Of a DNA stretch of 64,000 bases, positions 5,636 to 59,748 are shown in pieces; position 1 is the stretch's first letter; each line of letters begins with the position of its first letter. This stretch comes from Austropuccinia psidii (taxonomy: Eukaryota > Basidiomycota > Pucciniomycetes > Pucciniales > Sphaerophragmiaceae). The stretch is from NCBI GenBank assembly GCA_023105745.1, contig JALGQZ010000018.1, positions 16,687,773 to 16,751,772 on the forward strand, in the 5' to 3' direction. The position numbers and the translations under genes are program-made. The notes under the pieces are model-generated. The model was not told the DNA's origin. It searched no databases and saw only the letters and a list, made by a program, of their open reading frames with translations.

Positions 5636-6991
5636 TTATTTTTCAGGTTTTCTTTCATGTCTGAACCTTCTTAGTAATTTATCAGCATTTGTTATATCTT
5701 TCTCAAGTAGCCATTCATCTTCTTGAGTTGAGTTTCTATACCTTACAAGGTATTCCCTTTCCTTTTTGTTTCTTGTCCTTCTTTCTTTAAGGACTTTTAC
5801 TATTTTCTTTTCCTCTCCTTCCTCCAAGGGGGGGATTTCAAGTGGGGGTTTATTTCTTAGTGGAAATAACTCCTTGTCACTTGAACTGTAAGGCTTTATC
5901 AGACTTACAGGGAAAGTTGGGTGTTTGTTCATTAGTTCACCTTTGAGTTCTAATTGCACAGCATTGGGTCCATTGAGTGCTTTTATCATAAATGGTCCTG
6001 CAAAGGAATCTTTCAATTTCTTTGGGCGTTTTATGTTATTGAAATTAAGGGTTGATACTAAAACCAAGTCTCCTATTTTGAAATCAGGTGGTTTATGACT
6101 TTTATCCCATCTTTCTTTTGCATATTTAAAAGAATCTTTCATGCATCTGTTTGCATGGTGTCTTGCTTTGTCAAGCATTATCTTGAAACTGCTTGCTGTT
6201 GGATGTATATCCACTAAGTCCTTTTTGAGGGTGTCATAAGGAAGTCTTGGATTCCAACCTTTCTCTAGCATTGCTGGTGTTTTGCCAGTAGAAGAATGGA
6301 TTGATGTCTTATATGCCAGCTCAAGTGCTGGTATTAGTGTACACCAATCATGGGTAAAACCATCAGAATCTTTGAATTCTAGCCCATAAGCACAGAATCT
6401 TCTGATCATATCCTCTAGGGTCTGTATCATTCTTTCTGCTAGACCATCAGTTTGAGGATGATAAGCTGTTGAGAATGATAATTTTGTCCCAAAAAAGTTA
6501 TGGAGATTTGTCCATAATGCTGAAGTGAACTTTGGGTCTCTGTCACTTATAATATTTTGGAATAAGCCTGTGTGGCTAATGACTTTATTCCATATCATTA
6601 TGGCTGTATCCATAGCTGTGTCATCTTTATGGCATGGTAGGAACATGGGAGTTTTACTGTACCTGTCAACTAATACTAGGCATGCATTATAACTCCTGTC
6701 TCCTCCTGGAGGTAAGGCTGTTACCCAATCCATATGAACTATTTCCCATGGGGATTTTGGTTCTTGGATTTGGATCATCATTGCAAATTTCTTTCCTGTG
6801 GCTCTGTTGGCTTTTTGACATCTGTCACAGGTTTGGCAGTACTCTGCAACATCTTTCTTCCAATTTGGCCACCAAGAGCAGGTTTTCACCCTCTCTAGTG
6901 TCCTATCTTCTGAGAGATGTCCAGATGCAACACTATCATGACACTCATGTAAAATAGTGTTTATTAGTGTTCTGTCTGTTAAGGCCATAAC
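5636..6991 (-). pseudogene. Element B integrase, main and C-terminal part (split by element C)
   Basis: The frame holds most of the integrase of element B. It includes the zinc-binding HHCC region ([15 protein letters not shown] and CDRCQKAN) and the DDE core, with D in HMDWV, D in SDRDPKFTS and E in DGLAERM. A chromodomain-like end (YLVRYRN..DEWL) follows. It is open to the TAA at 5636, which lies beside a T-rich tract at 5610-5637. Its upstream coding sequence continues at 16697 on the other side of element C. The insertion falls just after the HRTKH segment that precedes the zinc region. This part has no stop, but the gene as a whole is broken. Confidence 0.9.
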
Positions 6992-8430
6992 TGTCAGGTT
7001 GAGTCTATGATAAGAGTAATAAAGTGTATTTACAACTTTTAACTATGACTGTGACACGGTATATAAAAGTTAAAAAGGTTTTATAAGAGTTGAAGATGGT
7101 TTTAATTTAATAATAAAAGGGCTTTACTATAGTGGATATAGTGGTGGTGAGCGCTGTTGAAAGCCCTGGGTGCAGCTTTACCTGTTGGGTTACAATAATA
7201 AAGACTACAATTATTAAGATTATAATAATACCTGATTATTACCCAAGAGTAAAACTGTTTTTGACAGTTTACTACGTAGGGTATTCAAGAGCAGGATGAG
7301 GAAAGGTCTTTGGCTGTGAAAAGCCCTCCTTTTATCCTGAAATTGAGGTGAAAAGGTGATTAAACCTTTTCACGTAGAGGGAGTGAAGATTTTTCACTCC
7401 TCATGACAGGCTTGTGGTTTGCAAACAACCTGTATACCCTGTATTGGGCTCAGATGTGGTTTTGAAACCACATCTGGGCGGTTTTCACCAATACAGGGTG
7501 AAAATTTTCATCTGGGGACCTCACAGCCTGATTCTGACGTGTATCACGCGTAGAATGCTGTACAGAAACTGTATGGGACCCCAGTATTGACTGACATATG
7601 AGGTATTGAAGTAAAAACATGCTTATTCGTCTGTTGACACCTCATATTCATGATTATGGGGTGTTATCCCATGGTAAGGCTGTATATGACAGCTGGTGGG
7701 ATTTTGACCTTAAAATGGTCATAACTCTGTCCGTTTTTGAGATATCAAGCTCAAAGTTGGTCCATTGAATAGCTCTATATGAGCTCTACACAATGGTACC
7801 CAACTTGACATGGTTATCATTAAATATGACAAAGTTATCCCATGTACAAGTATTTTTGTACATTGGCGTGGTTTGGGCAAAAAGCTGTATTAAGCTTGTT
7901 TGGCCAATAACTTCTGTTGTAGTTGAGTTATGGGGAAATGGATGACACCATCAGATAGCCCTGATTGTGCTCTTTCCAAAAAGACCCCACTTCAAGTATC
8001 CCACACTAAAACTGTAGAAGTTAGATGGGAGGTGAATGTTTTGTTCACCTTTATTTGGCCTGAATTTGACCATAACTCAAGTAATACTGGTGCTAGCTCA
8101 GTTTGGCTGGTACCATTGGATAGCCCTGGCTTAGAGCTTCATTTTGAATACCCATTTGATGGGGTTAAGCCTCTCCTTCTAGATTTTAGATGAGAGGTGA
8201 AAATTAAGGTTTATGCTCAGCAATGACTTTGAGCAGGAATAACTTTGTTATTTCTTGTCCTATGGTGATGGGACTTGTATTTTCAGAAAGAGGTGAGTTT
8301 CCTCTTTCTTTTGATACCTTTTGAGCTAATTGGGCTCAGTTCCATGTTTTGGTGGTATTTTGGCTATACCATTAGTTTATGGTATTTTGGCTGTCATGCT
8401 TGTGCTCTGGTTTTGAGTCACAGGTTGACA
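6992..8430 (-). repeat. Element C 3' LTR (left copy)
   Basis: This 1,439-bp direct repeat has its partner at 15253-16691. It contains a cluster of inverted repeats at 7348-7373, 7380-7400 and 7437-7498 that could form hairpins in DNA or transcript. A single base at about 7545 (CACGCG for GACGCG) differs from both the right LTR and the solo copy, so that change arose in this LTR. Confidence 0.95.
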
Positions 8431-8442
8431 TACCCTCCCTCT
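8431..8442 (-). other. Polypurine tract of element C
   Basis: On the minus strand AGAGGGAGGGTA directly precedes the 3' LTR. Only about a dozen bases separate it from the Gag-Pol stop codon. Confidence 0.75.
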
Positions 8443-8454
8443 AAAAAAGGCTCA

Positions 8455-11400
8455 TCATTGATGAGACTGTTCAGTCCTCCTAGAGGCTCTGAATCTCCTT
8501 AAATGAAGGTTCCCATCTGGTATGGCATCTTCTGCCAACCATTTGTCTTTATCAGCTGTCTGGTTTTTGAATTTGACTAGGTATTGTCTTTGATCCTTTC
8601 CATTAAGTCTGATTTTTCTGGCCCTGATGATTTTACTCACAGGTCCAGGAGAGTCTTCTACTTCCACTATTTCTGGTGGAGTGATGTTCTTCCTCCTGGA
8701 GAGGAATTTTTCCTCCTCTGTTTGGAAGTATGGCTTGACCAGGCTCACTGGAAAGACCGGGTGTTTCCTAGAAAACTCCTCAGTGAGCTTGACCTCTACT
8801 GCATTTTTCCCTATTAACTTAATGATAGTGAAGGGCCCTACAAATGAGTCTCTCATTTTCTTAGGTCCTTTGAGATTGTTGAAGTTCAGTGTAGACACTA
8901 ACACCTGGTCCCCTTCCTTGAAGTCAGGTTCCATATGTGATTTGTCCCACCTCTGCTTGTTATACTCTTTGGCCTCAGCTATGCCTTTGGCTGCAGTATC
9001 ACAGGCTTTCTTCCACATATCATGGAAGTCTTTGGCTGTGGGGTGGATGGTCAGAAGATTTTTCTTCAAGTGATCCACAGGTAACAGGGGATTCCACCCT
9101 TTCTCTACCAGTGCAGGTGTTTTTCCTGTGGTAGAGTGCTGGCTTGTGTTATAAGCCAGCTGGACTGCTGGTAAGAGGGTAACCCAATCATGGGTGTATC
9201 CCTCATGGTCCTTGTATTCCATGCCATAGGCACAGAACCTCCTGAGAATGTCCTCCATTGTTTGGATCATTCTCTCAGCTAGGCCATCTGTTTGGGGATG
9301 GTAAGCTGTGGAAAAAGCAAGCTTGGTGCCAAGCATGTCATATAAGTTGGTCCAAAATTCAGATGTGAATTTTGGGTCCCTGTCACTAATTATGATCTTG
9401 GGGACTCCACAGGTGGATATGATGTTATTCCAAAATAACAGAGCAGTGTCCATGGCTGTGTCCTCTTTATGGCATGGTAGACATCTCATGCTTTTGCTGA
9501 ACCTATCAACTATGATTAAGCAGGCATTGTAGTTTTCTTTGCCTCCTGGGACAAGTCCTGTGACCCAGTCCATGTTAATGGTTTCCCATGGGTGCTTGGG
9601 TTCTTCTATATGTTGAAGTAACCCATATTTCTTCCCATGTTTTCTATTTGCCTTTTGGCATCTTTCACAAGTGTTGATGTATTCACTCAACTCTTGTTCC
9701 CACTTGGGCCACCAAGCTGTGCTTGCTACCCTCTCTTTGGTCCTGTCTTCACTCATGTGTCCCATATAGGGGCAGTCATGGCATTCCTGCAGGATTAGAG
9801 AGATGTGGTCTCTGTCTATCACTGTGAGTGCACTGGTGTGCTTTTCTCTGTGATAAATCAGGCCATCTATAAGGAAGAATTTATTGTCCTTATAGGCCCT
9901 CAACCAGGGTTCCTCCAGCTGGGTTTCCAGTTCTGGGCTCCTGTATTTATGTTGAAGGAGTTGGAGTAATATGCTACACTGTTTGTGCTTAGCATAAGAT
10001 TTCAGGACTGCATTGAAAAATTCATTGTGCAGTTCTGAGGAACTTATTCCCAGTATGGGAGTTTCTGTTCCTTCTGAATCAGTGTTTCCACTGTCAAGGG
10101 TACCAATCTCTGGTGCCCATTCAGAGAATCTGAAGTTCCTTTTCCTATTGATCTCCATAAAATGGATAGGAATTTTTGCAGCAACTTCAGGGTCATAAGC
10201 TGGATTGCTTTTGACATTGTCCAGTGGCCATCTGCTAAGGCCATCTGCATTGGTATGGCTTTTACCTTCCTTGTATATGATGGTCATGTTCCCTCTATAC
10301 TCCTGGATGGCTATTTGCCATCTCAGCATATGTCTATTAGTAGTCTTCATGTTTAGTAAAGACTTCAAGGCTGTGCAGTCTGTGTAGACTTCAAAGACTG
10401 CACCCTCCAAATAGTAATGGAGTTTTTCTAGAGCCCAGACTAGACATAGACATTCTGTCTGGGTGGCCCCATACCTGGCTTCTGAATCTTTCAGCTGCCT
10501 GGAGATGTAACATATTACACCTTCTCTTGGTTCACAATCCACAATTTGTCTTTGGTGAAGGGCTGCTCCTAAGCCTTGGCTGCATGCTGCATCTATGTAT
10601 AACTTGAATGGTAGTTCAAAGTCAGGCAAGATGAGCACAGGTGCATTTGTGAGTTCATATTTTATCCTCTCATATGAATCCCTCCTTTCCTTGGTTATTT
10701 CAAAAACTACATCCTTTGAGCATAACTTGTATAAGCTACTAGTTATGTGGGAAAAGGTTTTGATGTGGTTTCTATAGTAGCTAGCAAACCCAAGGAAAGA
10801 TTGCATTTCTTTAATGCTCTTTGGTACTGGCTTTTGCAGTACTGCTGCTACTTTGTTCTGGTCAATTGCCAGACTAAGGCCTGAGACTTTGTGTCCTAGA
10901 GCTAGTAGCTCTTGTTGGCCAAAATTACACTTTTTAAGTGAAATTTTTAGATTGATGGGTGTACATTTACTTAGCACTCTGTCTATGTATTGTACATGAT
11001 CTTCCCATGTCTCTGAGTATATAATGATATAATCAATATATACTACCATCCAGCCTTCCATTATTTCTTCCTGAAATATGGTGTCCATCATCCTTTGGAA
11101 GTGGGCTGGTGCATTTTTGATGCCAAATGGCATCCTGGTGTACTCATATATGCCCATATGGCATATTATTCTGAGCAACTTCATGGAGTTTGGTTTAACT
11201 CCATTTTGGTGGAAGCCTTTCATACAATCCATCTTGGTTATGTATTTGGCTTTAGCCAGTTTATCCAAGGCATGAGGTATCCTTGGTATAGGGTACCTGT
11301 CTGCTTTTGTGTAGTTATTCAGGGCTCTGAAGTCTCCACACAATCTAGACTTGCCGTCATGCCAGGTGATTAGGACAGGGGTGGTAATTTCCACTATTTC

Positions 11401-14310
11401 ATTATGTCCAATCTTCCTAATGACATCCATGTCCAGGAGTTCATTGATATGTTTCTCAATCTCTTTCCTGGTTTCCAGACTTGCTGGGTAAGGAGGTCTC
11501 CTTAACATGGGTGGATAAGGCCTTTCTACATCCAGATATAGTTCTATATCATGGCCTTTGATCTTGCCTAATGGTTCTTCACCAATGGCAAATGCTGGTC
11601 TATTCTTCCTCAGCATCTTCAGTAAACTTAGTTTCTGTTTACTGGTGAGGGTAGTGCTAAACTGTCCCTCTCTGAATTCTTTCAGAAGTTCTTCCAGTGG
11701 GTCCTGAGAAGATATCTGGTATATATCAAGAGAGAATTTCTTTTCCTTGTTAGTACCAATGGTAATATGCCTATTTTTACTATTGTAAATATCTATGCCA
11801 TACATCCTCTGGTAATCTGTTCCCAGTAAAAACCCTTGGATGTGGGCATCTTCAAGCACTACAAACTCTGGGTTGAGTCTGATATTACCTTTTCTGTGGG
11901 GTATAATTATCTCTTTGATAATTGTCCCAATAGAGGTCATCTTTCCAGATGCACTCTTAAAGTTCTTTGCCCTGGTGGGCAAGAGTTCTTTTTCCCAGTT
12001 TGGGAAGTGTTTATCCAGATAATTTCTGGCCACTATGGAGCAGTGTGCTCCACTGTCAATGATCAGTGGGTGCTGAGCATTGTCGATACATACAGTCATT
12101 TTTGTGGCTGTTCCATGTATATATGCCATTCCTTTGGTTGGTGTAACCAGGAATGTTTGTGCATCTTGTGTATGTTTACACAAGTTTTTGTTGGCAGTGT
12201 CTTGTGGCATGCCTGCTTCCAACTGTATATCCTGGATTTCTAGTGGGGTTTCCTCTTGGTATTCCACTAGAAATTCCTCTCTTGGGTCTTGATCCTCATC
12301 AGATGGTTCTCTGATGGCATCACCCATAGAGTCTGATTCAGAATCCTCTGTTGGAGGTTCTTCCTCAGGGACTTTCTCTATGGCATAGACTTTTTTCTTT
12401 GCCTTTGGACAGTTGTTAGCATAGTGGTCTGTTGAACCACAATTGTGACAAGAATTCTTTTTCTTTGCCACTTCTGCCACTCTTTCTCTGGGTTTGTCTT
12501 TAAACTCTACCCTGAAAGGTTGTTTCTCTTTGAAACTACTGCTTCTATATGGGGTGAATTTCCCTATATTAGTCCTTTTCCTTATGTCTTGTAAGGTATT
12601 GGCTATGTCATCTAGAGTGCAATTTTGGTTGCATCTGCATTTCACTGCATGCTCTAGTTCTCCTGGCAGTTGTGTCAGAAGTTTGTGATTCCTCATCTGG
12701 ATGTTCATCTGAGGATCAATGGCTTTAAGTCTTTTAGACTGTCTGAGACACCACTCATATGGATCTTTGTCCACAGAGTATTTGTCATTTTCAAATGACA
12801 TGGTCTTTTGCCATATCCAAGTTCCATTACTGTACTTTTGGATTATCTGACTCTTCCACCATGGCCAGTTCCTTCTGCCATGGATTTCTTTCATTTCAGT
12901 GTACCATATACTTGCATGACCTTTAAATGCAGTATTCAATCTAGCAGTTATCCAGTAGTCTGGTATGCTTGGTACATCAATGAAGAGTCCATCAATATAA
13001 TCTATGAGTTCCATATGATCATATTCTCCTGATCCAGAGAATTTGGGCCAGCTTGAGGCCTCAGGAAGCTGTTTCAAGGCTTCCTTCTCTGAATAAGACA
13101 TTCCATCTCCATCCTGGTATTGTGATGGAGATCTTGCCTTATTCAACAACATGGCATCTGGTTTGATGTCATCTGGTTGGTATGGATTCTCCATAGCTTG
13201 GCCTTGTGGTTGGGGCTTCAAGCTATGGTAGGCATCAAACAATTTGTTGATGTCTTGGTTCAGACACTCCCTGTCCCTGCTGCTATGGTGTTGTTCTTCA
13301 GAGACTTGATTCAGTCTCTTGTTGGTTTCTTCAGAGGCTTTGCTCAGTTGAGCATATCCTTCCTGAAGATTTTTAACTATCTGCTCCAATGAGGCTTGAG
13401 TTTTTCTCATCCTCTCTTGGGCAATTGCAAATTCTGCAGCCTGTTTTGCTGATTGCTCAACATATTGGGACATTTGCAACCACAGTGTGTCACTGTTAAT
13501 GTTGCTCTCAGATGTGATAATGTTATTTTCAGTCTGAGTGGGGGTAATGTTTCTATTACTAGGACTACTGATTCTAGAGTGGTTTACAACTACTTCTGGT
13601 TCTTGTGTACTTCTTTTACCAAATCTAACAGCTTCTGGATCATGGGGTCTGACTCTTTCCTCCTCTGGTTGAAGGAGGCTTTGTTCTTGCCCTTGTTGCC
13701 TTGTCTTCTCCTGGAAACTTCCTGGAATTGTGAAGAATGGTGACTCTTGGCCACTGATCTGCTGGTTTCTGAATGGTGTGAAGCCACTGGAGAGCTGATT
13801 TGGCTGACTCCTTGTGAACCTGAAGGAATCTGAGTAGGCCCTGTCTGGGTTAACTGTTCTTCTATAGCTTGGATAGTGGCTTGGTTCTCCCTTATCCTCT
13901 GTGCCCTTGCCTCCAGGAGTCTGTGCTGCCTGGTAGGGTTCCAACCCTTGGTGATTACCATAAGGTCCTTGAAGTCTATCTCTTTGAGGCAGATCTTCTG
14001 GCAACTTGATCCCAGTTCTGCCCAGTGAGTTGCTAGGTTGAACCTCTTGTTGTCCATGCTCCATTGAAACAAATCTTTGAGGAGTTGGTGGATTTGAAGA
14101 ACTTGATCCATATCCTTCCAGTCCTCTGGTTTGAGGTTTCTGTTGAATTGGAGTGTGAATGGCAAGGTTGATATTATCTCCCTCATTGTTTTGCCATCCA
14201 CCACTGTGTCCAATGTGTCTTCTTTCAGGTCTTCTGGTTCTAGACATTCCTGCTCTGTCCTCTGGCTGGTTCCTTTGGAAGCCAAGGTCTCTGAGGTATG
14301 CAGGGGACAT
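8455..14310 (-). CDS. Element C Gag-Pol polyprotein, intact, 1,951 codons
   Basis: This single frame encodes all retrotransposon proteins. Approximate residues are as follows. The N-terminal region (1-270) is rich in S, Q, P and R. A coiled-coil-like stretch lies at 280-350 and a capsid-like region at 420-600. The zinc knuckle [14 protein letters not shown] is near 619 and the aspartic protease IIDSGAHCS near 750. RT runs from about 900 to 1180, with YIDY near 1090, and RNase H starts at DAACSQGLG near 1237. The integrase zinc region is near 1510-1550, with catalytic D, D and E near 1580, 1641 and 1678. The chromodomain-like end is near 1885-1945. The ATG at 14310-14308 lies inside the predicted second intron, so only transcripts that retain that intron can use it. 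The second RT aspartate is replaced by tyrosine, which should impair polymerisation. The single-frame Gag-Pol layout is known for several fungal chromoviruses. Confidence 0.93.
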
Positions 14311-14658
14311 ATCAGTGTTTGCAAGCAGTCAAAAACTTTATGTTCTTTGGGTATTTACCTTTGACTGTGCCTTGTACAAATTTGCTATCTGCTGATTTGG
14401 GCAGTTTGCCTTTGGAGGTTACAACTGGGTTAATAATTGTAATCTTCCCTGCACAAGTGGTTAAGGTTGGTTTACCTTGTATTGAAGCAGAGTTTCGTGG
14501 TTTTCTACTCCTCTGAGTGGCTATTGGTGTCCACTTTTTGGCTGTGATGAGGCCTTCACTAAGCCTTTTTCCTTTGCCCTTGCTGCCCTCTGGTTCTGAG
14601 GGTGTCACTGGTATGTTGGCCTGTGACTGGGTCTCAAGTGGTATGAAGTTTTCTTCCA
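13590..14658 (-). CDS. Element C predicted spliced accessory protein overlapping Gag (333 residues)
   Basis: This is an inferred gene. A 5' exon (14359-14658) is open but has no ATG of its own. Its donor (AAAG before GTAAAT) and the acceptor CTCAG define a 68-bp intron at 14291-14358. Joining at 14290 continues in the frame +1 relative to Gag-Pol, open to a TAG at 13590. With one base from the upstream exon the coding length is 1,002 nt, exactly 334 codons. Elements B, D and E have matching structures. Shared features are KGWNP (NGWNP in B), a lysine- and glutamine-rich middle, and a hydrophobic helical end ([12 protein letters not shown], like AVDSVFNIVRTLMEF in D). The function is unknown. 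It could instead be the true N-terminal Gag domain joined to the rest by frameshifting. An alternative acceptor two bases on (CAGAG) would lead into the Gag-Pol frame. Confidence 0.6.
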
Positions 14659-15252
14659 CTGAATCAAAACAGGAAAAAGAGGGCTTATGTCAGTTAAGAC
14701 TTCTTACAAGGCTGGTTTTGCACGTCTAAGAATGGCCTCTGGGCTTGTATATTACTACAGTATGCCCTTGTATAGTGACAGTATAATTGAATTAACAATT
14801 CCATGTCAGAAATACAGCTTATTGATTATTGGTATACTGTTTGTATACCAATATCTTACAGAATACTTGTTATTAGCAAGTATAATCTGTCAAAAAATGG
14901 TGTATTACAGGGCAATTGAGTTAACAATGTGTCCAAACACGCCTCAACTGTTGGTTTATCAGTATGAGCTGTCTTAATTCAATTAAGAATTGAGACTGTA
15001 TAAATGGCTTAAAAGTGTTTTTATATGCAAAACACGCCAAAAATACTGGTCTTGTGGTTATTAGCCACTAGACAAATACTCTTTAAAAATATGAGTATTA
15101 TTAAATTTTTAAAGAAGAATATATATAAAATATATTTTTCAAAAGAAAATGACGCCTAAAAATAAAAAACAGGTGTCAATAAATGATAAAAAAGAGAAAA
15201 AACTTACTTGTAAGGTCCAAAATAAGTAAAAAACACGGCCAGGCCCCCAAAA
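14659..15252 (-). other. Element C primer site, leader and predicted first intron
   Basis: On the minus strand TTTTGGGGGCCTGGCCGTG follows the 5' LTR, where the primer-binding site is expected. The primer tRNA, or a self-primer, was not identified. The leader then reads CTTACAA followed by GTAAGT (donor bases 15202-15207). An acceptor TTTTGATTCAG ends at 14659. Removing 14659-15207 (549 bp) would join A to TGGAAGAA and create an ATG in the accessory-protein frame. Confidence 0.55.
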
Positions 15253-16691
15253 TGTCAGGTTGAGTCTATGATAAGAGTAATAAAGTGTATTTACAACTTT
15301 TAACTATGACTGTGACACGGTATATAAAAGTTAAAAAGGTTTTATAAGAGTTGAAGATGGTTTTAATTTAATAATAAAAGGGCTTTACTATAGTGGATAT
15401 AGTGGTGGTGAGCGCTGTTGAAAGCCCTGGGTGCAGCTTTACCTGTTGGGTTACAATAATAAAGACTACAATTATTAAGATTATAATAATACCTGATTAT
15501 TACCCAAGGGTAAAACTGTTTTTGACAGTTTACTACGTAGGGTATTCAAGAGCAGGATGAGGAAAGGTCTTTGGCTGTGAAAAGCCCTCCTTTTATCCTG
15601 AAATTGAGGTGAAAAGGTGATTAAACCTTTTCACGTAGAGGGAGTGAAGATTTTTCACTCCTCATGACAGGCTTGTGGTTTGCAAACAACCTGTATACCC
15701 TGTATTGGGCTCAGATGTGGTTTTGAAACCACATCTGGGCGGTTTTCACCAATACAGGGTGAAAATTTTCATCTGGGGACCTCACAGCCTGATTCTGACG
15801 TGTATGACGCGTAGAATGCTGTACAGAAACTGTATGGGACCCCAGTATTGACTGACATATGAGGTATTGAAGTAAAAACATGCTTCTTCGTCTGTTGACA
15901 CCTCATATTCATGATTATGGGGTGTTATCCCATGGTAAGGCTGTATATGACAGCTGGTGGGATTTTGACCTTAAAATGGTCATACCTCTGTCCGTTTTTG
16001 AGATATCAAGCTCAAAGTTGGTTCATTGAATAGCTCTATATGAGCTCTACACAATGGTACCCAACTTGACATGGTTATCATTAAATATGACAAAGTTATC
16101 CCATGTACAAGTATTTTTGTACATTGGCGTGGTTTGGGCAAAAAGCTGTATTAAGCTTGTTTGGCCAATAACTTCTGTTGTAGTTGAGTTATGGGGAAAT
16201 GGATGACACCATCAGATAGCCCTGATTGTGCTCTTTCCAAAAAGACCCCACTTCAAGTATCCCACACTAAAACTGTAGAAGTTAGATGGGAGGTGAATGT
16301 TTTGTTCACCTTTATTTGGCCTGAATTTGACCATAACTCAAGTAATACTGTTGCTAGCTCAGTTTGGCTGGTACCATTGGATAGCCCTGGCTTAGAGCTT
16401 CATTTTGAATACCCATTTGATGGGGTTAAGCCTCTCCTTCTAGATTTTAGATGAGAGGTGAAAATTAAGGTTTATGCTCAGCAATGACTTTGAGCAGGAA
16501 TAACTTTGTTATTTCTTGTCCTATGGTGATGGGACTTGTATTTTCAGAAAGAGGTGAGTTTCCTCTTTCTTTTGATACCTTTTGAGCTAATTGGGCTCAG
16601 TTCCATGTTTTGGTGGTATTTTGGCTATACCATTGGTTTATGGTATTTTGGCTGTCATGCTTGTGCTCTGGTTTTGAGTCACAGGTTGACG
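15253..16691 (-). repeat. Element C 5' LTR (right copy)
   Basis: This 1,439-bp copy is nearly identical to 6992-8430. Its terminal base is mutated (TTGACG). The hairpin cluster is repeated at about 15609-15759. On the element's strand this LTR would drive transcription of the Gag-Pol RNA. Confidence 0.95.
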
Positions 16692-16696
16692 ATAAC

Positions 16697-18807: not shown

Positions 18808-21137
18808 GTGCAGTATGCTCCTGTATCCAAGTTAACCTTTCCTTCTTGGTTATCAACCATAACAATACTAATACTTGATTTTCCAGCTGTATATCCCATT
18901 CCTCTTGCAGGTTTAGTTCTATACATTTTGGCATCTTGTATGTTTGTCAGATTTGTGTCAGATGTTCCAACTTGTGGCAAGTTTGAGTTGACATCCAGTA
19001 CTTCATAAATTATATCAATATTATTAATTTGTGCATTAATTATATTGATTTCATCACTTTCAGAGCTTTCTGACTCTTCTGTCTCTTTTTCAGAGTCTGA
19101 TTCCTCTTCTTTGTCATTGTGGTTTTCTGTTTCCACAATTTCATTAATCTTTCCTTTTTTAAGGCAATTATTGGCTAAGTGTCCAATACCTCCACATTTA
19201 TGGCATTTTCTTTGCTCATTATTGTTCGATGTATTGGGCTTAAAGGATTCTTTTGATTTATCTTTTTTGATAAATGGTTTATTTGGGCTTTTAATGTCCA
19301 ATTTTTTCCAAGTCCTGCCAATTTTTGTTCTTGTCACTATATCCTCTAGTGCATTTATATACTCTTCTGTGGAGCATGGCTCTATACACCTGCTTCTTAG
19401 GGCATGTTCTAGTTCCCCTCCACATTTTTTAAGTATTTTCATATGCACCATTTTCTGTGACATTTCTGGGTACAGTGCATTAAGCCTTTCAACTTGTTTC
19501 AAGAACCAAGTTAAAGGTTTATCTTTCTCAGGGTCAAAGAAAGAGTTTTCAAATGCATTTTCTATCTTATACCTCCAGGCATCATTTGCCCACTTGGTGA
19601 TTATTTCTTGTTTCCACCAAGACCAGGTATTTTTACCATTTGTTTGTCTTATGCCATAATACCATCTTTTTGCAGATTTCTCAAACAATGAATGTAATCT
19701 TGCAGTGATTAATTCATCTGGTATGGCATAGTCTTCTTGTAACATGTCAATTGTTTTAATAAATGACATGTGGTCATATTCACCTTCTCCTGTGAATGTT
19801 GGCCATTCTTTCAATTGAGGTGCTTCCTTCATTAAGACTTGGTTATTGTCTTGGTGACTCAAGTCTGTTATGAAAGGATTTGACAATTCTTCTTTTGTTT
19901 TAACAGGGCTTCTTATATGAGAAAATGGTGTTGATAACTTTGGCATATTTAAATTGGCCTCATTAATTTTATCCATTTTTTCTGTAATAAGCCTTATTTC
20001 ACTTTGAATATCATCTTTCAGATGCATTCTTGCTTCATCACTTTTTTCCACATGGTCCAAAAGTAATTTTTGGTGTGATGAAGTCTTTTCTTCAAATTTT
20101 TCTACAGAAATACTTAATTTATTTAATTTTTCTGTAAGATTGTCAATACTCACATCATAATTGATTGTCAAAGTCTTGTCTTTGATATCTTTTATGTATT
20201 TATACAATTCTTGTTGTCCTTGTATTAATTTTTGAGTATTATCAATTAAATTCTTTGGTTTATTATTTTCAACAATAAACTTAATGTTGTCAATTTCTTT
20301 TTTGTTTTGCACAACAATTTTTGTTAAAGAAGATAAATTGTTATTTATTTCTTGTAGTGATAATAAACTATTTTTAATTTCTTTTAGAGGTAATATACTA
20401 TTTTTAATTTCTGTTAAAGTATTTACAACATCTTTGGACAAGGTTATTTCTTTGGGAAATGAAGTTGTCTCATTCTTTGCTCTTCCTTGTCCTTGAATTC
20501 CATCAAGGTTCTGGCCATGTTGAAAACATTGTCCATGGCATCCTTTTGGATTCTTGGGATTCTGTAGCTTGGGGAATATGGTTTCCTCCAATGTTTTTTC
20601 TTGTTCTTCTTCCCTTCTTGGGGAAGTGGGTTGGCTTGAGGCTTGCTGGTAGAAGCTACTGGGGCTTCTTCCTTGGTTGCCTCCCTCTTTTTGGCATGAT
20701 AATCCTTGATCTTTTTGATTTGAGGTTTGGATGACAGTGGATTCCATCCATTGGAGTATTTCACTATCTCCTCCTCTTTGAGGAACTTTTTCAGGATGTG
20801 CCAGGAGTTCATCACTCCTTGGTGTATTTGAGGCAGCATTTCCCAGTCTTTGTCCTTGTATACTGTGTAATACTGCTTGTACTGGCTCATGTAGATGTCT
20901 ATTTGAGCCCTCTGAATGTGATTTGTACCTGTTTGAGTTACTCATACTTAGTTCCAATTCAGGCTCAGATATCATGGGCATTTCTGGGACTTGCCTTTGG
21001 GATAAGGCACTTCCTTGTGTGGATTCTGTTCCACTGGGGATATTGCCCTTTCTTTTCCCTTTTGAGGGATCAATTCTACTTCTGAGTCCAGCTCCATCTG
21101 ATTGGATGGAGTATTGGGAACCTCTTCTGGTAGTCAT
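18708..21137 (-). pseudogene. Element B gag and protease (frameshifted before RT)
   Basis: The frame starts at an ATG (MTTRRGSQYS) and spans 809 codons. The N-terminal 250 residues are rich in S, Q and P. A long K/N/I-rich coiled-coil-like stretch follows, then a capsid-like region (EWPTFTGEGEYDHM). A zinc knuckle CHKCGGIGHLANNC is near residue 640, and an acidic linker precedes the protease motif VNLDTGAYCTCVGKSYL near 770. It loses frame just after the protease. The first 230 codons overlap the predicted spliced accessory frame. The ATG lies 11 nt upstream of the end of the predicted intron 21127-21212, so it survives only in transcripts that keep that intron. Confidence 0.85.
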
Positions 21138-21362
21138 AATTTAAAGAATAAGAAAAAATAAAAGTATTTTAGAATAAAATTCTTTTATGGCAATTTAAAA
21201 AGAGGTGCTCACCTTCAGAGTCTTGAATGGTGGGCCCTGGAAAGTCTAATTTCTTAGCTTTCTTTCTTTTGGTGATAACTGGTGTTGGAGAACTTTGACA
21301 AGTTTCTTCCACCAATCTCTCAACAGTAGCTTGGTTGTCTTCTGTTGGGTTATCTTCAAACA
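20444..21362 (-). CDS. Element B predicted spliced accessory protein overlapping gag (255 residues)
   Basis: This is an inferred three-exon gene. The exons are 21213-21362, 20995-21126 and 20444-20928. The introns are 21127-21212 (GTGAGC to ACCAG, 86 bp) and 20929-20994 (GCAAGT to AACAG, 66 bp, a GC-AG intron). With one upstream base the coding length is 768 nt, exactly 256 codons including the stop. Without the second intron the frame would have three stops at that spot. Element D shows the same exon joints, giving PKGTNHIQ here and PQGLNHFQ in D. Conserved parts are IDIY, GWNPLS, APVAS, a lysine-rich stretch, and YRIPRI..AMDNVFNMARTLMEF near the end. The function is unknown. The basic middle could bind nucleic acid, but that is a guess. 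Confidence 0.6.
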
Positions 21363-21874
21363 CTAAAAAAAAAGACAAATAAATATAAGTCTTTTTATAA
21401 TAAGTGTTATTTTTGGCAAGATATGGCAATTTTCCACGTAGAAATTGCTTTTATATCTTTGAAAAATTTAAATAAAGAAATGAATAAAAATGAATAAAAA
21501 TAACTTTTTTATTGGTTTTTAATGTTTTTTAATATTTTTTATATATTTTTTTATTTTTATTTTTTAAAGAATAAAATAAAAAATGAATATGATTCTTACG
21601 AAATTAAATTATAATAAAAATTATTTTTAATTTATAAAATATCTCTTTTAATTACTAGAGTCACTCAAAGAAAGTTCTTGCAAGTCTAAGGATGTGAAAA
21701 ACCACGTGTAAGACAGTACAATTGCTTTCCAAATGCCTCAATAGCTTTTAAAATCAATAAAATATAAAATTATTATATAATTTTTATGATTATAAATATA
21801 ATTTATTATTGGATAAACCCAAATAGAATCTTTTTAAAGGTCTTTTAAGTAAATATCACGGCCAGGCCCCCAAA
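21363..21874 (-). other. Element B leader with primer-site region
   Basis: TTTGGGGGCCTGGCCGTG on the minus strand abuts the 5' LTR and is the likely primer site. The AT-rich leader holds a segment shared with element D (TTACACGTGG..TTTTTCACATCC, about 21690-21720). It ends in a T-run and AG acceptor at 21363. The best donor seen (GTAAGA, 21594-21599) follows a C, so a split ATG as in C and E is not evident here. Confidence 0.55.
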
Positions 21875-23893
21875 TGTAAGGTTTGACTATGAAACAATAA
21901 GTAAAAATTACTAATTTATTACTTATTGTACTCTGAATGTCCTTATAATTGAAATAAATAAGATTAAAATAATAATAATAATAATAAAGAAATATTATTA
22001 TTATGGCGTAAAAATATTATATTATAAAATAAATATAATAATATAATTAATATTAAATGAAATTATAATATTATAAATAATATATTAATATAAAATAATT
22101 AATATATTATAAAGCTCTTTATTATTGTTACCAACAAATAATAAAGGCGTAAAAAATTGTTTTTTATAAATAAAAAACAATTAATAACAATAATATTACT
22201 AATATTAAAGTTATGAATTAATATAAATACTATTTATATTAATTAAAGAATTATTAAGAGAGTAATAATAGAGAAATTATTATAATAAGAGAAAATAACC
22301 TACTTTTAACACTTAATATAATAATTTTGAAGTATTTTACGCCAAAAAATATAAATACAACCTTTTCAAATTGTATTTACAATAAAAATAAAGAAAATTA
22401 CAAATTATTCTGGATTTTTACGTGGAAATGAGTTTTATAGAGATTTTTTAACAAAAACAATTAAATAAATGATTTAATCACGTCAAAATAGATGATTATG
22501 GCAAGGAGGTCTTTGGTCTTTAATAATATAATGCTTTTATATATAAAGAATAAAGAAATTACCTTTGATTTAATTGATTTAATGTTTTTGATGCGTCTGA
22601 GGGGTAAATAGAGTAAAAAGAGCTCTATTTATAGTAAATACCTCCCTCCTAGAGTCCAACAGGCTTCTATTAGACGTGTACTGATCATATCCACTGGAAT
22701 TGATCAATATTTTAAGGTTTGAGGGTGATTACATCATGATCAAACCATATTAAATCATTATTGCACCATTATTTAGAGTTATCACTATAACTCTAAGTTT
22801 GATGACATCAGAGGCTTGGCAGAACCCCAAATTTCGTGGATTTTATTAGTTTTAATCATAAACTAATAGTATTCACCAATTTTATCACTCTTAAGACTGT
22901 TAAACTTAATTTAAGGTTACAGTATGTGATTATAACAGCTCAATTTAAGCTCAAACTTTGATCCTCAATAACTTTTAAGGTTTTCACGCTACAGCAATTC
23001 AGAGAGTGAATTCTGATAGCCTGACATAACCTTATTATACTGCCAAGAGCTTTTCATTACATCATCAAAACTCTAATTTTGATGATTTTTCTTGTAACTC
23101 CTCTTTTCTGTTGAAATTCAATATTTTAAACTTCAAACCTTGATTTCAGGGGGTTATACCCTGAATTTAATAATAAAAATTACGTCATTCTTCTCGAATA
23201 GACTAGTAGAATCCAACTGTATACTTTTTTTTAAGTTTGGACTACTTTCACAACAAAGTGGTCAACAGCTCTGTTGATTTTTATCAATATTTCCTCATAA
23301 GTCTTAACCTTGTTTATAATTTGCAAAATAAAGCTCATATCTGTGTTCTTACAGTAATTACGTGATAACTTTATTTTTGGTTCATCATTCTAGCATGTAT
23401 ATTTTAGAAGATATTAGCTATGATCACTGAATATATGCGTTGACCAAAAAAGTGCATATATTCAGGATAATTCCTTAAGTATTGATTTTGGGAATTAGCT
23501 TATTAATTGTTTTATATGTGAATTTTTGTTGGGAATCCACTGGTACAATTTATTTCACATGTTGTTTCATTAGTTTCTGAGATAAATAAGATTTTATGGT
23601 TTTTATAAGGTATTATACCTTATAATTCCTTAAATATTGACTTTACAGATATGCCATAAAAATGGTATATGTGTATTTTTCCATGGGGAATCCAATGGTA
23701 TAATTTGTTTTACATGTTGATTCATTGGTTTTTAAGTTAAACCAATTTTAGTACCAATTTATGGTATTTTTTGTATATTTGAGTAATTATTTTTAGTATA
23801 TAATTATTCTAATATAATTATATTAAAGGTATAATTATTCTGAGTCTTTTTTGTGACCTTATTGGGTATGTGGTCATATCTCAAAGGCTCACA
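21875..23893 (-). repeat. Element B 5' LTR (right copy)
   Basis: This 2,019-bp copy pairs with 3482-5500. The right target duplication CATAC is at 23894-23898. It would be the promoter LTR for the minus-strand element. Confidence 0.95.
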
Positions 23894-42414: not shown

Positions 42415-43710
42415 TCACCAGAGAATGTTGGCCATTCTTCTATTTTGGGAATATCCCTTGTAGAGTAGGCATTTTTTTCCTAATAATGGGGTGAGACTTT
42501 CTTTAACAGAAAGTTTCCCTTCAGTTAAAGGTGTAGAATGTCTTGGCATATGTGGTTCATGATTCTTATGAATTTGTTCCACACTTGCAATTATTTCATT
42601 CTTCAACTTCTGCCTTTCACTGTCACTTTTTGCTAAGTGTATGGAAAATTGATTGGTATTCTCAACTATTTTTAAGACTTGGTCTTGCAAAATTGTAAGT
42701 TGATCATTCACCTTAAAAATGGAAATATCTTCCATTTCATCATGCTGAATTTGGCACATATTTTCAATTCTTTTGCAAGAATTGGTAATTGAGTCAAGTT
42801 TGGCATTTGTCACTTGGTGCAATTCAAAGTATTTTTTGTCATTTTTCTTTAATTCAACTATATCTGATGCAATTTTAGTTAGCTTTCCATCAAGTTTACC
42901 AATTTCTACACTAATACTAGTCTGTACACAAATTATTTGTGTGGAAAGTTTCTGTTCATCCTTTCCTGCTCCTTGGCTGTGAACTCCATAAGAGTTCTGA
43001 CTATATTGAAGACACTGTCCACTGCTGAAGGCTCCAATTTGGGGATCCTGTACCCTTGTGGGTAAGGTCTGTGCCAATTGGCTTTGCCTTTTCCTTTGCC
43101 TTGATGGTTCTTGGGACCCTTCTGTTTCCTCTGAGATCCCTTGGGCTTGTCTTTGGACACTTCTGGAGCTGGTTTGGAGGTGGTAGACGCCACTGGTGCC
43201 TCTGTCTCCAAAGCTGGAGTCATTTCCAACTTTTTCTTCTGGTCTATGGATAAAAGACTTTGGTTCTTCAACCAATTCTTTATCTTTTTGACCTTGTCTT
43301 TGCAAGACAGGGGGCTCCATCCTCCTAAGAGTTCTATGGTCTTCTCCTGACACAGAAAGCTCTTGATGTGTAAGTAGGAGTTCATGGCCCCCTGCCAAAG
43401 GCTTGGGCAGATTTCCCACTCCTCTTCCTTGGCTGCTCTGAACCAGTTTTTGTACTGGCATTGATATATTTCTATTGCTGCCACCTGAAAGTGGTTCAGC
43501 CCTGGAAATACTACCATAAATCAGTTCAGGCTCTGGATTCACGTCAAAATCTGTTGGTACAGACCTTGGGGAATGGGGGGCAACACTGGCATCCTCCAAA
43601 TGTGTCTTTCTTGTGGAAGACTTGGCACTTCTGGATTTGGTCTTGCCTCTTCCTTGTCCACATCCATGTGGTTGGACTGAATAGTTGCTTCCATTTGTGG
43701 TATGCACCAA
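42415..43710 (-). pseudogene. Element D gag N-terminal region
   Basis: The frame covers the S/Q/R-rich N-terminal part and a coiled-coil-like segment (KLDGKLTKIASDIVELKK). It runs out of frame after PLLGKK. The first codon in line with the other elements' ATG is TTG, so the start seems lost or non-standard. The N-terminal motif GSNYSVQPHG matches GSQYSIQSDG in element B. Most of it overlaps the predicted spliced accessory frame. Confidence 0.8.
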
Positions 43711-43918
43711 TTTTACATCAATTTAAGGATAAAGAGTAAAAATAAAGATAAAAACACACCTTTTGGTGGTAATTTATTCTTTTCAGAATTAAATAAGGTG
43801 CCTCTTTTAGCAACTTGCACCTCAATACTTTCTTCAGATTCTGCTTCTGAAGATTCTGGACTAGTGATATATCTTTTACTGAGTCTGTTGCCAGCTGCAC
43901 AGTATTTGATTAAAGACA
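42933..43918 (-). CDS. Element D predicted spliced accessory protein overlapping gag (283 residues)
   Basis: This is an inferred three-exon gene. The exons are 43760-43918, 43565-43687 and 42933-43501. The introns are 43688-43759 (GTGTGT to GGAAG, 72 bp) and 43502-43564 (GTCTGT to TTCCAG, 63 bp). The exon sum plus one upstream base is 852 nt, exactly 284 codons with the stop. The second intron removes two in-frame stops and joins PQG to LNHFQ, matching PKGTNHIQ in element B. Shared features with B are SNHMDVDKE, IEIYQCQYKNW, GGWSPLS, APVAS, a lysine- and glycine-rich stretch (KGKGKANWHRPYP), and YRIPKL..AVDSVFNIVRTLMEF. The function is unknown. The first exon has no ATG, so a further leader exon is expected. 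Confidence 0.58.
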
Positions 43919-44308
43919 CTATAAAACATTTATAAAAGAGAAAAAATTATGTTTTATACTTTTTAAACCATTTTTAAGGATTTTTTATAAGTTTTATATT
44001 TTTTAATATTAAAAAATTATTATTTTTAAAGAAAAAAATTAAAATTTAAGATTTTGAATGAAAATTAATTCAGAGTAACTCAAAGAATAATTTTATAGGT
44101 TTTTGGATGTGAAAAAGCCACGTGTAAAAACAGTATAAAATTAAACCAAATTCCTCAATGAAAAAGATTTCCAAAACAATTTCAAAAATAAGATTTATTT
44201 TAACTTTTGAAATGAAAGAAAAAAATTATTAAATTAATATATTTTAAAGTTTGAAAATAGATTAATTAAGGGTACAAGGTTGAAAAAAAAAACAGCCAGG
44301 CCCCCAAA
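43919..44308 (-). other. Element D leader with primer-site region
   Basis: TTTGGGGGCCTGGCTG on the minus strand follows the 5' LTR. The leader shares TTACACGTGGCTTTTTCACATCC-like sequence (about 44100-44130) and TTCTTTGAGT.ACTCT with element B. It ends in a TTTTATAG acceptor at 43919. No convincing donor that would make a split ATG was found. Confidence 0.5.
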
Positions 44309-56300: not shown

Positions 56301-59279
56301 AATGTTAAAAATGATGTCAACTTCATGACCAATAATTGCTCCTAGAGGTTCTTTGTCTGAAGCAAATGCTCTTCTGTGGTCATACAAAAGGGGAGAAAGT
56401 TCATTTTCTTTTTTATCAGTCAGATGAAGGCTTATTTCAGCCTCATTTAACTGTTCGGACTTGAATTTCTCTAACTCTAAGTTGACTGGTGATACTTTTT
56501 TTACTTTAATTTGTCTTTTAAATGGTAAAAAGGCAAATTTTTGGCGCTTATTGTCTCCAATAGTAGAGTATCTGTCTTTGCTATTATGCAAATCTATCCC
56601 ATACATGATTAAATAGTCATTTCCCAATATAAAATGGGTACTAGAGCAATCTTCCATAACACCAAATTCAACTGTGATTCTTAAAGTCCCATTTATGTGT
56701 GGGAATATGACATTGGTCTCAAAGATCCCTAATTCTTTCATTGGATTACTTGCACTGTTGAATTTTATAACATCAATTGGTAACAGTTGGTCTTCAAAAT
56801 TTGGTACACAAGTCTTAAGAACAGATTTTCCAACACAAGAGCAGAAGGCTCCTGGGTCAAGAAAAAGTCTGGTGGGCTTGTTATCAATCACCACTTCTGT
56901 TATACAGGAGTTACCAGCTGTATAACCTTTTCCCTTGTTTTGTTTTATTTTCATAAGTTGTGCATCTTGAACTTTTGATAAATCAACTTGACAATTGCTC
57001 AATTGTGGCAAGTGGGAATAAGATTCCATGATTTCAAAAGTGGCATTGATATTTTCTATACCTTTTGAAGATTCAGAAAATATTTATGATTTATCATCTG
57101 AATTTTCTTCAATTATTTCATCTTTTTCAACATCAGGTTCCTTTTCAATATCAATTTCATTGATTTTCCCCTTCTTTGGACATGTATTGGCTAAATGGGT
57201 GGTGCTTTGGCAAATATGGCACTTTCTGACTGTATCTGCAGATTTATACTTAATATTATTAGAATTTTCTTTGGGGTTTTTGTCCACAGAATCTTTCCAA
57301 GGTGTATTAAACCTTGTTTTGAGATTCACCCTACTAGAACCAATTTTGGTTCTGGTGGTTACTTCTTCCAATATATTGATAATATCCTCTGCTGAAGATT
57401 GTTCAGTAGTCCTGCTTTTGATAGCATGCTCTAAGTAACCTCCACATTGTCTCAGAATTTTTCTATGGATCATAAGTTCTGACATGTCAGGATATAATGC
57501 TGTTAATCTGTCTTTTTGTTGGCAAAACCATGGTAAAGCTTTGTCTTTATCAGCATTAAATTTGGCAGATTCAAAGGCTGTTTCAACTTTGAACCTCCAA
57601 GCATCATTTGCCCATTTTTTCATGATTTGGGCTTTCCACCAAGTCCAACTCTGGTGTCCATGTGCTTGTCTTATTTTTATGAACCATCTGTGAACTGATA
57701 TCGTAAACAAGGTGTTAAATCTGGCTGTTACCAATCTGTCTGGTAATTCAAAATCCCCTTTGATCATGTCAATACCTCTAATGAATTACATATGGTCATA
57801 CTCTTCTTCACCACTGAAGTGAGGCCATTCTTTAAGTTTTGGAACTTCTTTCAAGACTGCTTGGCCCAATGATGGTTCTAAGTTATGAAAAGAAGTAGAA
57901 AATTCATTTTTTAACTGTGAATTTTCAATATCCAATATTTGTGGATTGGGAATTCTTGCATCTTCATTTTGATTCAGAGGTGTAGACATTTTTGGTAAAG
58001 TGTTTAGCAGTTGTTCAATATCATTCATTTTACTGTTATTACACCTTTGTGAATTTCTTAACTCATGTTGTAAGCTTTGTATAGAGTCTTTGACATTCTT
58101 TTTATGATCATCCTCTTTATATGTAAGCTGATTCCATAATTATGTTTGTTTGGTATTATGAGATATAACTTCATTTAGCTTTATTGTTAATGTTGATATT
58201 TCCTCTCTTGAGGTATCAAAATGCTTTTTCAAGGCAACTGTATTTGTCTTTACTTCTTCAAATGATTTTGAAATATCATCAAGAACTTTTTTGTTATCTT
58301 CTTTGATAGTATTAATAGCCTGTTTTATTCTTGTTTCAATTATGTCATCAATATTGAATTTAGAATATTTTTCTGTTAATTCTTTGTTAATGGCAAATTG
58401 TTCATTTATCTTAATGCCAAAATAATTATCATTATTGGAAGCTTTCATTGTTCTTAAAACTCTTTCAAAGCATTTAAGTGTATCATTTATTTGGCTCAGA
58501 CTCAAGTTGTTTGTTTGAAGATTGTCACAAATTGATTTATTATTATCATAAAGATGATTTTTTACATCAATAATGGCTTTATACAACTCTGGAATACACA
58601 TAAAAGTATCAGAAATCATTTTTAATATTTTAATCTGGCTTCGTCCTTCTTTTGTAATTCTATCATGGTTCTGGTCATCTGAAATATATTTTCCATGGCA
58701 TCCTGTTAAATCTTTGGGATTCTGCAGCCCTGGCTGTAAGGGTTTGGGGCTGGTGCCTTCCCTTTGCCCTTGTTTGGAGTTTGTGGCTGCTTTTTCACAT
58801 TTGAATTGCTGCTGCTGGCCACTGGGGCTGTTTTTGGCACTGGTTTGGGTAGTGGAGGGTTGTTTTTCCTCCATTCTAGTGTCAAAAGCATCATGTTTTT
58901 CTTCTCCATCAATGGATGCCATGAATTGAGCAATTTTCAAGTATTGGTATGGCCCAGGAATTTTCTTACTGTCAGGTAAGAATTCATGTAATTCTTCCGC
59001 AGGTCTGCAAGGATCTGGTACTCCTTGAACTGGAGTGCATTGTTGTATTCACTGTGGCTGGCTTTGTATATGTCCACAGAGGCTGGTTGTGGTGGTGTCA
59101 GCTCTTTTTGAAGGTAAAATGGTATTATCAGCTTCAGAATGACCCATTTTAGTTGTTTGGAAGTCATCAACTGACCCTTTTCCTTCTGTACCTGATTGGC
59201 CTCTGCCATAATCACGTCTATTACCTTTCTGTGAGCTGCTTGAGGGGTTAGAGCTGGCTCCTGACCTGGTTGAAGTCAT
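53355..59279 (-). pseudogene. Element E Gag-Pol, single frame with six stops
   Basis: From the ATG at 59279 (MTSTRSGASS) to the last stop at 53355 all segments stay in one frame. In-frame stops lie at about 59049, 58140, 57786, 57084, 55212 and 54603. Domains in order are an S/Q-rich N-terminus, a long coiled-coil-like part (57990-58600), a capsid-like region (WTWWKAQIMKKWANDAW) and a zinc knuckle CHICQSTTHLANTC near 57200. The protease motif is [11 protein letters not shown] near 56850, with DPG where DTG or DSG is needed. RT has YIDEIIVCS near 55800, its second aspartate changed to glutamate. RNase H and integrase follow, with D, D and E still present (HMDWV, SDRDPEFTS, DGLAERM), then a chromodomain-like end. 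It has no frameshift but many point changes, so it is old and inactive. Confidence 0.9.
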
Positions 59280-59526
59280 AATTATGGTTAAAAAGGCTTA
59301 AAATAGTAATTTTACGTCAAAAAACTTACTATTGGCCAAATCTTTGGCTTTCTGAAGAGTATTACTTATTTCCAAGTTGACTAATTCAGAAGAAATTGGC
59401 TGTGGTTGAATATTCTGAGTCACAATAATAGTACTATTATGATCGAATTAACAGTACTGGCAGGAGTAATGCTGGTTACTGTTGAGGCTGTTTCAATGTT
59501 TTCTTGTCTTACCACGTTGTCAGACA
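58622..59526 (-). pseudogene. Element E accessory frame overlapping gag, decayed
   Basis: A 5' exon (59330-59526) would begin M-SDNVVRQENIE after the junction A|TG and holds LVNLEISNTLQKAKDLAN. It has a one-base frameshift. An intron at 59266-59329 (GTAAGT to AACCAG, 64 bp) leads to SQEPALTPQAAHRKVID in the +1 frame and on to ASVDIYKASHSEY, YMNSYLTVRKFLG, APVAS and AMENIFQMTRTMIEL, ending at 58622. Stops at 58937 and 58706 break it. The same motifs occur in the accessory frames of B and D, so the frame was once coding. The Gag-Pol ATG at 59279 lies inside the intron. Confidence 0.55.
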
Positions 59527-59748
59527 CTAAAATAAATGAAAAAACCAATTAATTAAGTAAAAAAAAATATCTCAAAAAAGAAATTGAAATATAAGCCTCA
59601 CTTATAGTATTAAAAAAATTATTTTTTATGGATTTTTTGAATTATAAGTATTTTTTATATTTTTTTAAATTTTTCAATATAAGAAAAAAGATTTAAAAAG
59701 AGTAAAAAAAATATGTCACAGGTAAAATATCACTGCTGGGGCCCCAAA
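59527..59748 (-). other. Element E leader, primer site and predicted first intron
   Basis: TTTGGGGCCCCAGCAGTG on the minus strand follows the 5' LTR. A donor TATAA before GTGAGG (59596-59601) and an acceptor TTATTTTAG ending at 59527 define a 75-bp intron. Joining A to TGTCTGAC makes an ATG, as in element C. Confidence 0.5.

Follow-up and report, generated by a model that had tools for sequence, protein, structure and literature searches.

How one retrotransposon transcript could be made to yield two different proteins is the question raised by a window of 64,000 nucleotides (nt) from Austropuccinia psidii (GenBank assembly GCA_023105745.1, contig JALGQZ010000018.1, positions 16,687,773 to 16,751,772 of the forward strand; the window is this whole stretch, and positions below are counted from its first letter). 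The window, with a base composition of 36.2% G+C, contains several Ty3/gypsy elements, and in four of them, here referred to as elements B, C, D, and E, gag-pol lies on the minus strand, as do all the features of these elements described below. The sequence makes it quite probable that splicing exchanges one start codon for another, that of Gag-Pol for that of a second, gag-overlapping protein, named X, which is conserved among related copies.

The plan is most complete in element C. Its Gag-Pol open reading frame (ORF; 8455..14310, 1951 codons and a stop, with Pfam matches) begins at ATG 14310, and this ATG lies inside a predicted 68-nt intron (intron 2, 14291..14358, GTAAAT...CTCAG, GT-AG), just as an earlier note on this DNA had placed it. 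Upstream is X exon 2 (14359..14658), which starts with TG, has no ATG in any frame, and is free of stops in the X frame. It is preceded by a predicted intron 1 of 549 nt (14659..15207, GTAAGT...TTCAG, GT-AG), the borders of which also agree with the earlier note, and by the part of exon 1 that follows the long terminal repeat (LTR; 15208..15252), with A15208 as its last base and a donor, CAA^GTAAGT (the caret marks the junction), that matches the consensus at 6/6 positions. Downstream of intron 2, X would continue in the +1 frame of gag as exon 3 (13590..14290), where the frame is open from the intron-2 acceptor to its stop at 13592-13590. Translation of the joined exons gives 333 residues plus a stop, i.e., 1002 nt, so that the earlier claim of a +1 join with a length that is an exact multiple of three is borne out. 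Because exon 2 begins with TG, X exon 1 must end in A, and the joining of ...ACAA^GTAAGT to TTCAG^TGG does produce ATGG with an A at -3 (ACA^ATGG after splicing). The only ATG in the leader of element C, at 14804, falls within intron 1 and would be in frame with X via another A^GT candidate at 14755; an annotated protein model, P0034, has a join of the 14755 type (RAYC^MEEN).

The same arrangement is found in the other elements, in varying states of preservation. All four elements have AG^TG at the border where the X exon begins (besides C, at B 21362, D 43918, and E 59526), and the X start ATG itself is absent from the DNA in C, B, D, and E. Since the X exon begins with TG after AG, an A^TG splice would create the X start codon. 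The Gag ATG is intronic at 14310 (C), 21137 (B), and 59279 (E), with distances of 20, 11, and 14 nt, respectively, from its A to the last base of the intron. Thus, the earlier statement that the plan recurs in B and E, and in D apart from a lost ATG, holds for the position of the ATG. It needs correction in that D also lacks the acceptor, that exon 2 of E is frameshifted, and that an additional phase-1 intron of B and D had been missed.

In element B, X is predicted to consist of four exons. Exon 2 (21213..21362, beginning with TG after TTTTTTTTTAG) would be preceded by a weak candidate intron 1 (21363..21664, donor TGA^GTGACT, 5/6, with an alternative candidate at 21655) and followed by an intron 2 of 86 nt (21127..21212), within which Gag ATG 21137 is located, and by exon 3 (20995..21126) as placed by predicted splicing and frame. 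The +1 open run at this place is only 53 codons long in B and 57 in D before stops occur, with X-frame stops between 20974 and 20942 in B and between 43541 and 43521 in D. B and D therefore need a further intron within gag, and predicted introns 20994-20929 and 43564-43502 remove these stops. Both introns are of phase 1 and lie wholly inside the Gag coding sequence: in B it is a 66-nt GC-AG intron (20929..20994, AAAG^GCAAGT...AAACAG), and at the same place in D it is a 63-nt GT-AG intron (43502..43564, CAAG^GTCTGT...TTCCAG). The resulting joins read PYPK^GTNHIQRAQIDIY in B and PIPQ^GLNHFQVAAIEIY in D, and they lead into exon 4 with its stop codon (B, 20444..20928, by frame translation; D, 42933..43501), which is 41% identical between the two by BLASTP (3e-43), making X of B and X of D homologous. 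Upstream in D, exon 2 (43760..43918) begins with TG, and intron 2 can be placed by position at 43688..43759, where the CAG acceptor and the Gag ATG of B are lacking and the acceptor is uncertain. Element E needs no gag-internal intron; its predicted intron 1 (59527..59601, 75 nt, 60% T, donor TAA^GTGAGG, 5/6) is followed by exon 2 (59330..59526, beginning with TG, frame broken inside), intron 2 (59266..59329, 64 nt, with Gag ATG 59279 inside), and exon 3 (58943..59265), which has a weak profile match to B-type X.

Further support for exon 2 as an exon comes from its composition, as it is lower in T and higher in G+C than the adjoining introns and leader in 4/4 elements. Outside the Gag overlap it is stop-free over 100 (C), 50 (B), and 53 (D) codons, and base shuffles were equally stop-free in 30, 204, and 79 of 5000 cases, respectively. 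A donor that leaves A at the end of exon 1 is clear in C (6/6) and good in E (5/6); the candidates in B (TGA^GTGACT and CTA^GTAATT) score 5/6 each and that in D (TGA^GTTACT) 4/6. The TGA^GT(G/T)ACT of B and D sits inside a block common to both leaders (21648-21721 / 44065-44138, 79% identity over 77 columns), which reads ACACGTGG(T/C)TTTTTCACATCC ... CTTTGAGT(G/T)ACTC and may hold a shared exon-1 donor or else a signal for packaging or promoter activity.

How would the intronic Gag ATG come to be used? The strongest evidence for its use is the location of the missing ATGs. On the two strands of the window, the interval from one ATG to the next averages 49 nt (2,623 intervals), and the four longest intervals all fall upstream of gag, namely, 1551 nt in B (22688 to 21137), 1032 nt in E (60311 to 59279), 971 nt in D (44942 to 43971), and 861 nt in C (15665 to 14804), and the fifth longest is the matching part of the 3' LTR of element B. 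The ATG-free LTR/leader stretches of B (21138..22687) and E (59280..60310) stop exactly at the Gag ATG (21137 and 59279). Of nine trinucleotides tested, only ATG and its complement CAT have a run exceeding 782 nt. Leader ATGs number 0 in B, 0 in E, 1 in C, and 3 in D, against expectations of 8.0, 5.4, 12.4, and 7.3, and dinucleotide shuffles reached counts as low in 0 (B), 1 (E), 0 (C), and 26 (D) of 1000 cases. Selection for scanning that starts at an LTR promoter and reaches an intronic Gag ATG would be expected to give this pattern. The distribution of ATGs, like the positions and frames given above, is read directly from the DNA.

Taken together with the exon structure, this suggests one LTR transcript with two fates, unspliced RNA serving for Gag-Pol and as genome and spliced RNA for X, with mutually exclusive start codons. 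The leader is nearly free of ATGs, and on unspliced RNA a scanning ribosome would start Gag-Pol, since the intron-2 ATG is the first to be met after 1.6 kb in B and 1.0 kb in E. Removal of intron 1 is predicted to place the final A of one exon before the initial TG of the next and so to make the X start codon, and removal of intron 2 to delete the Gag start and let X run on in the +1 frame of gag. From B and D transcripts, the small gag-internal intron 3 would be spliced out as well. We infer splicing, initiation, and packaging from sequence, with the packaged and copied RNA remaining unspliced and X being an accessory protein from the spliced mRNA. Packaging of unspliced RNA would account for the survival of the introns in copies whose LTRs are 99% identical. 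The idea of the earlier note that a kept intron gives Gag-Pol and a removed one the overlapping protein fits the sequence and gains strength from leaders free of ATGs and from an X start of the A^TG kind; it is tempered by the predicted nature of the splicing, the extra intron in B and D, their weak exon-1 donors, and lopsided constraint on the two frames.

The introns might, instead, not be real, and X might be translated from unspliced RNA by ribosomes that leak through the Gag ATG and initiate at an X-frame ATG further inside. This is unlikely, although most annotation of B-type X consists of an unspliced ORF that begins at an internal Met (of the 120 best matches listed, 92 models have 140-155 residues and 60 begin MSQY), and the best B-type cluster, P0241, has 44 members. 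Under leaky scanning, the first X-frame ATG would be reached only after a ribosome had skipped 3 ATGs (C), 5 ATGs (B), or 6 ATGs (D, starting the count where the Gag ATG has been lost). It also leaves unexplained the stop-free, T-poor exon 2 with its bounding splice signals, the AG^TG in 4/4 elements, and the fact that intron removal in B and D joins similar peptides (PYPK^GTNHIQ and PIPQ^GLNHFQ).

Whether X is a real gene product was assessed from constraint in the two overlapping frames, compared at the DNA level with the copies in the window. In exon 4 of B versus D, X is 49% identical (156 aligned residues) and the Gag frame 35% (149), and in a nucleotide-guided alignment the difference rates at X codon positions 1, 2, and 3 are 0.34, 0.30, and 0.53. 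For element C, the codon positions that changed were inferred from homologous A. psidii proteins (120 listed, 98 of them altered within the overlap); changes that fit no codon position or several were left out, and intervals were obtained by resampling the 120 proteins. Position 1 of the Gag frame, the wobble base of X, accounts for 62% of Gag-frame changes in the overlap (95% interval 61-64) and for 46% outside it (46-47), and position 3 for 5% over X versus 17% in the rest of Gag. The core of X in C is 82% identical to its homologues, and the Gag frame over the same bases 73%.

Avoidance of stops was assessed by codon-usage resampling and by permutation of an element's own codons, with 5000 trials each. 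With X held fixed, the expected numbers of Gag-frame stops in C, B exon 4, and D exon 4 are 15.1, 10.3, and 11.5 by usage and 8.0, 5.7, and 6.3 by permutation; none is observed in any of the three, which was matched in at most 4 of 5000 trials, and for C in 0 of 5000 trials of either kind. With Gag held fixed, the expected X-frame stops are 5.5, 2.0, and 5.3 by usage and 0.8, 2.4, and 3.5 by permutation, and zero stops occurred in 3 (C), 413 (B exon 4), and 3 (D exon 4) of 5000 usage trials and in 1811, 110, and 34 of 5000 permutations. By these tests, the Gag frame clearly avoids stops where it covers X, and the X frame does so less decisively. X has the clearer amino-acid constraint, and the Gag extension over X stays open yet changes faster.

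These data bear on two further explanations. It is quite improbable that Gag-Pol alone is real, with the leader being a long 5' untranslated region and the open +1 frame a by-product of gag codon usage taken up by gene predictors. The frequency with which own-codon permutation of gag leaves the X frame of C open would agree with this, as would the chimeras among annotated X models. A by-product would not account for the higher identity of X than of Gag between B and D with most differences at X third positions, for the concentration of Gag-frame changes at X-silent positions, or for the rarity of open X frames in permutations of D (34/5000) and B exon 4 (110/5000). It is likewise improbable that X is spliced and real while the Gag extension is not normally made, Gag-Pol starting downstream (e.g., near residue 280, codon 13473) or by reinitiation and the overlap being open for some other reason. 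The lower conservation of the Gag frame over X would fit such a downstream start, and the 120 listed Gag-type models include 12 that begin at residue 280 and 14 that begin at residue 83. Against it, in B and E it is precisely the intron-2 ATG that closes the ATG-free leader, stops are avoided in the part of the Gag frame that covers X (in C and in exon 4 of both B and D), and 55/120 listed Gag-type models begin at a Met homologous to 14310.

Annotated proteins offer a separate view of the start-codon switch. X of C matches 702 database proteins at E<=0.001, and X of B matches 358; the listings considered here hold the best 120 of each, and the best 120 of 503 for a third protein search, and in each search all 120 listed are from A. 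psidii MF-1. The intron-2 join is spanned by 103 of the 120 C-type models listed, 80 of which align there without a gap, and model P0243 shows the intron-3 join of B, PYPK^GTNQIQRAQ, carrying PYPKGTNQIQRAQ. Because such models are predictions, and some are chimeric, they corroborate splicing and do not prove it.

Several observations weigh against the switch. At the intron-2 join, 23 of the 103 C-type models are gapped; P0301, P0321, and P0333 are chimeras of Gag-frame and X-frame sequence; P0013 is translated across the intron; and many X models begin upstream of, or run through, the AG^TG place. The short models that dominate the B-type list cover the last X exon only, and most of that list is therefore silent on splicing. 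The leader of C still holds its one ATG (14804). The exon-1 donors of B and D are weak, and chance is possible, with A^GT sites of at least 4/6 numbering three in B and one in D. The composition of B intron 3 is not intron-like (T 0.21, G+C 0.42), which is expected if the region also codes for Gag and is not support either. Element D has neither a homologous Gag ATG nor the CAG acceptor, and exon 2 of E is frameshifted; on these grounds D and E are regarded as decayed copies. By own-codon permutation the open X frame of C is unremarkable, that of B exon 4 is weak by usage, and those of B exon 3 and the E pieces are weak too. Changes to Met in exon-2 residues of the homologues are as common as elsewhere (21/218 vs 54/650, p 0.58), so that no selection against new exon-2 ATGs is seen in the copies behind the annotated models. 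Finally, a profile comparison of X of C with X of B and D gave no homology (probability 0.6%).

What, then, is X? X of E matches B-type X in a profile comparison only weakly (E 2.6e-05 over 52 columns, probability 74.6%). What the elements have in common is a plan; with X of C showing no detectable relation to X of B and D, the protein either evolves very fast or was replaced. No Pfam family above cut-off was found for the X pieces, and no sequence of a solved structure at E<=1 for X exon 3 of C. The sequence of X comprises a core that includes the motif GW(N/S)P, a basic linker rich in K/R/S, and a C-terminal stretch. The AlphaFold2 models of X pieces are poor and mostly helical (C, pLDDT 50.5, pTM 0.23; B, pLDDT 63.6, pTM 0.35); the C-terminal stretch is predicted as a helix in C and B, and the core, poorly, as helical.

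The choice between protein products by keeping or removing an intron has precedents. In copia of Drosophila, BARE1 of barley, and EVD, a Ty1/Copia element of Arabidopsis, all LTR retrotransposons like those studied here, intron retention or removal sets the protein product, as described in passages of two papers (PMC3735527, PMC8892269); splicing there keeps the gag start and drops pol, giving a Gag-only RNA. In the A. psidii elements, by contrast, the predicted splicing would remove the gag start, the intron containing the gag ATG, and make a protein in the +1 frame, so that a Gag-only strategy of the copia/BARE type is not what is found. Among Gypsy elements, spliced transcripts are known for plant elements such as Bagy2, for Ogre, and for CRR, where splicing serves env, takes place between ORFs, and removes the reverse transcriptase (rt) region, respectively; the passages on them describe neither an overlap with gag in another frame nor a start codon built by splicing (PMC3735527). 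In env-bearing Gypsy elements, the spliced protein is encoded 3' of pol, whereas X lies at the 5' end, over gag.

Complex retroviruses make early proteins from multiply spliced mRNAs, e.g., Rev and Tat of HIV-1 and Rex and Tax of HTLV-1. They resemble the plan proposed here in that unspliced RNA is the genome and the template for Gag-Pol, a small protein read in overlapping frames being made from spliced RNA. A difference is that X lies over the beginning of gag, whose ATG is itself intronic, and the likeness shows no membership. The predicted splice signals and frames fit a multiply spliced mRNA of the Rev/Rex kind as far as DNA can tell, and for RNA binding or export by X the basic linker and the C-terminal predicted helix are the only features that might be pointed to. 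By analogy, the elements might be a fungal counterpart of the retroviral early/late switch, where X would be made first and then keep the introns in, or export the unspliced genome, for Gag-Pol to follow, the system having arisen in rust retrotransposons with a Gag extension overprinted on an X gene; this is a rather doubtful scenario. Scans of viral contigs with X of C and with the reverse transcriptase-integrase part of C gave no relatives.

A fungal gypsy element with this plan was not found among the open-access titles and starts of abstracts listed, which is no proof of absence from print; the main text of PMC12210899 contains none of gag, intron, or splic. The myrtle-rust genome, of gigabase size, is reported to be covered to >90% by transposable elements, predominantly Gypsy (PMC8063080). 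If a splice-controlled second gene is true of these elements, one retrotransposon transcript could select between two products, a start codon present only in spliced RNA and one present only in unspliced RNA would ensure a clean mutual exclusion of the two proteins, the X gene would be a candidate for part of the elements' success, and many fungal 'hypothetical proteins' would be X products of retrotransposons.

The elements themselves have the features expected of Ty3/gypsy (Metaviridae) LTR retrotransposons. Paired LTRs are present in C, B, D, and E, and the domain order reverse transcriptase - RNase H - integrase is present in element C by Pfam. The aligned LTR blocks of C (3' LTR 6985..8432; 5' block 15247-16694, the 5' LTR being set at 15253..16694 with its end at ...TGACA) are 99.3% identical. 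C is nested inside B, the LTRs of which (3482-5500 / 21875-23893) are 99.1% identical, and the LTRs of D (35936-37860 / 44309-46233) are 97.0% identical. Element E is older, with two LTR blocks of 95.1% and 89.7% identity and a 3' LTR interrupted at about 50683-52121 by a C-type solo LTR; this solo LTR, on the other strand, is 99% identical to the LTRs of C. A similar TTTGGGG(G/C)CC stretch directly after the 5' LTR in 4/4 elements (about 15230-15252, 21852-21874, 44286-44308, and 59726-59748) is likely the primer-binding site.

In Gag-Pol of element C, RVT_1 (residues 986-1142), RT_RNaseH (1230-1338), Integrase_H2C2 (1499-1556), rve (1573-1672), and SH3_Tf2-1 are above the Pfam cut-off, and a match to the chromodomain (PF00385), which the chromovirus lineage of Ty3/gypsy carries at the integrase C-terminus, scores 14.5 bits at residues 1893-1940, under its cut-off of 25.1. 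The reverse transcriptase motif of C is YIDY (residues 1091-1094, at 11029-11040). The usual motif is of the YIDD type, and because YIDY replaces it, the reverse transcriptase of this copy is probably inactive despite the open ORF. Positions 1-2777 hold, on the plus strand, a fragment of a further element that is 81% identical to residues 1057-1952 of C Pol and is cut by the edge of the window, its 5' region lying outside. Tandem repeats occupy 32171-32702 (unit of about 78 bp) and 63324-63796 (about 49 bp).

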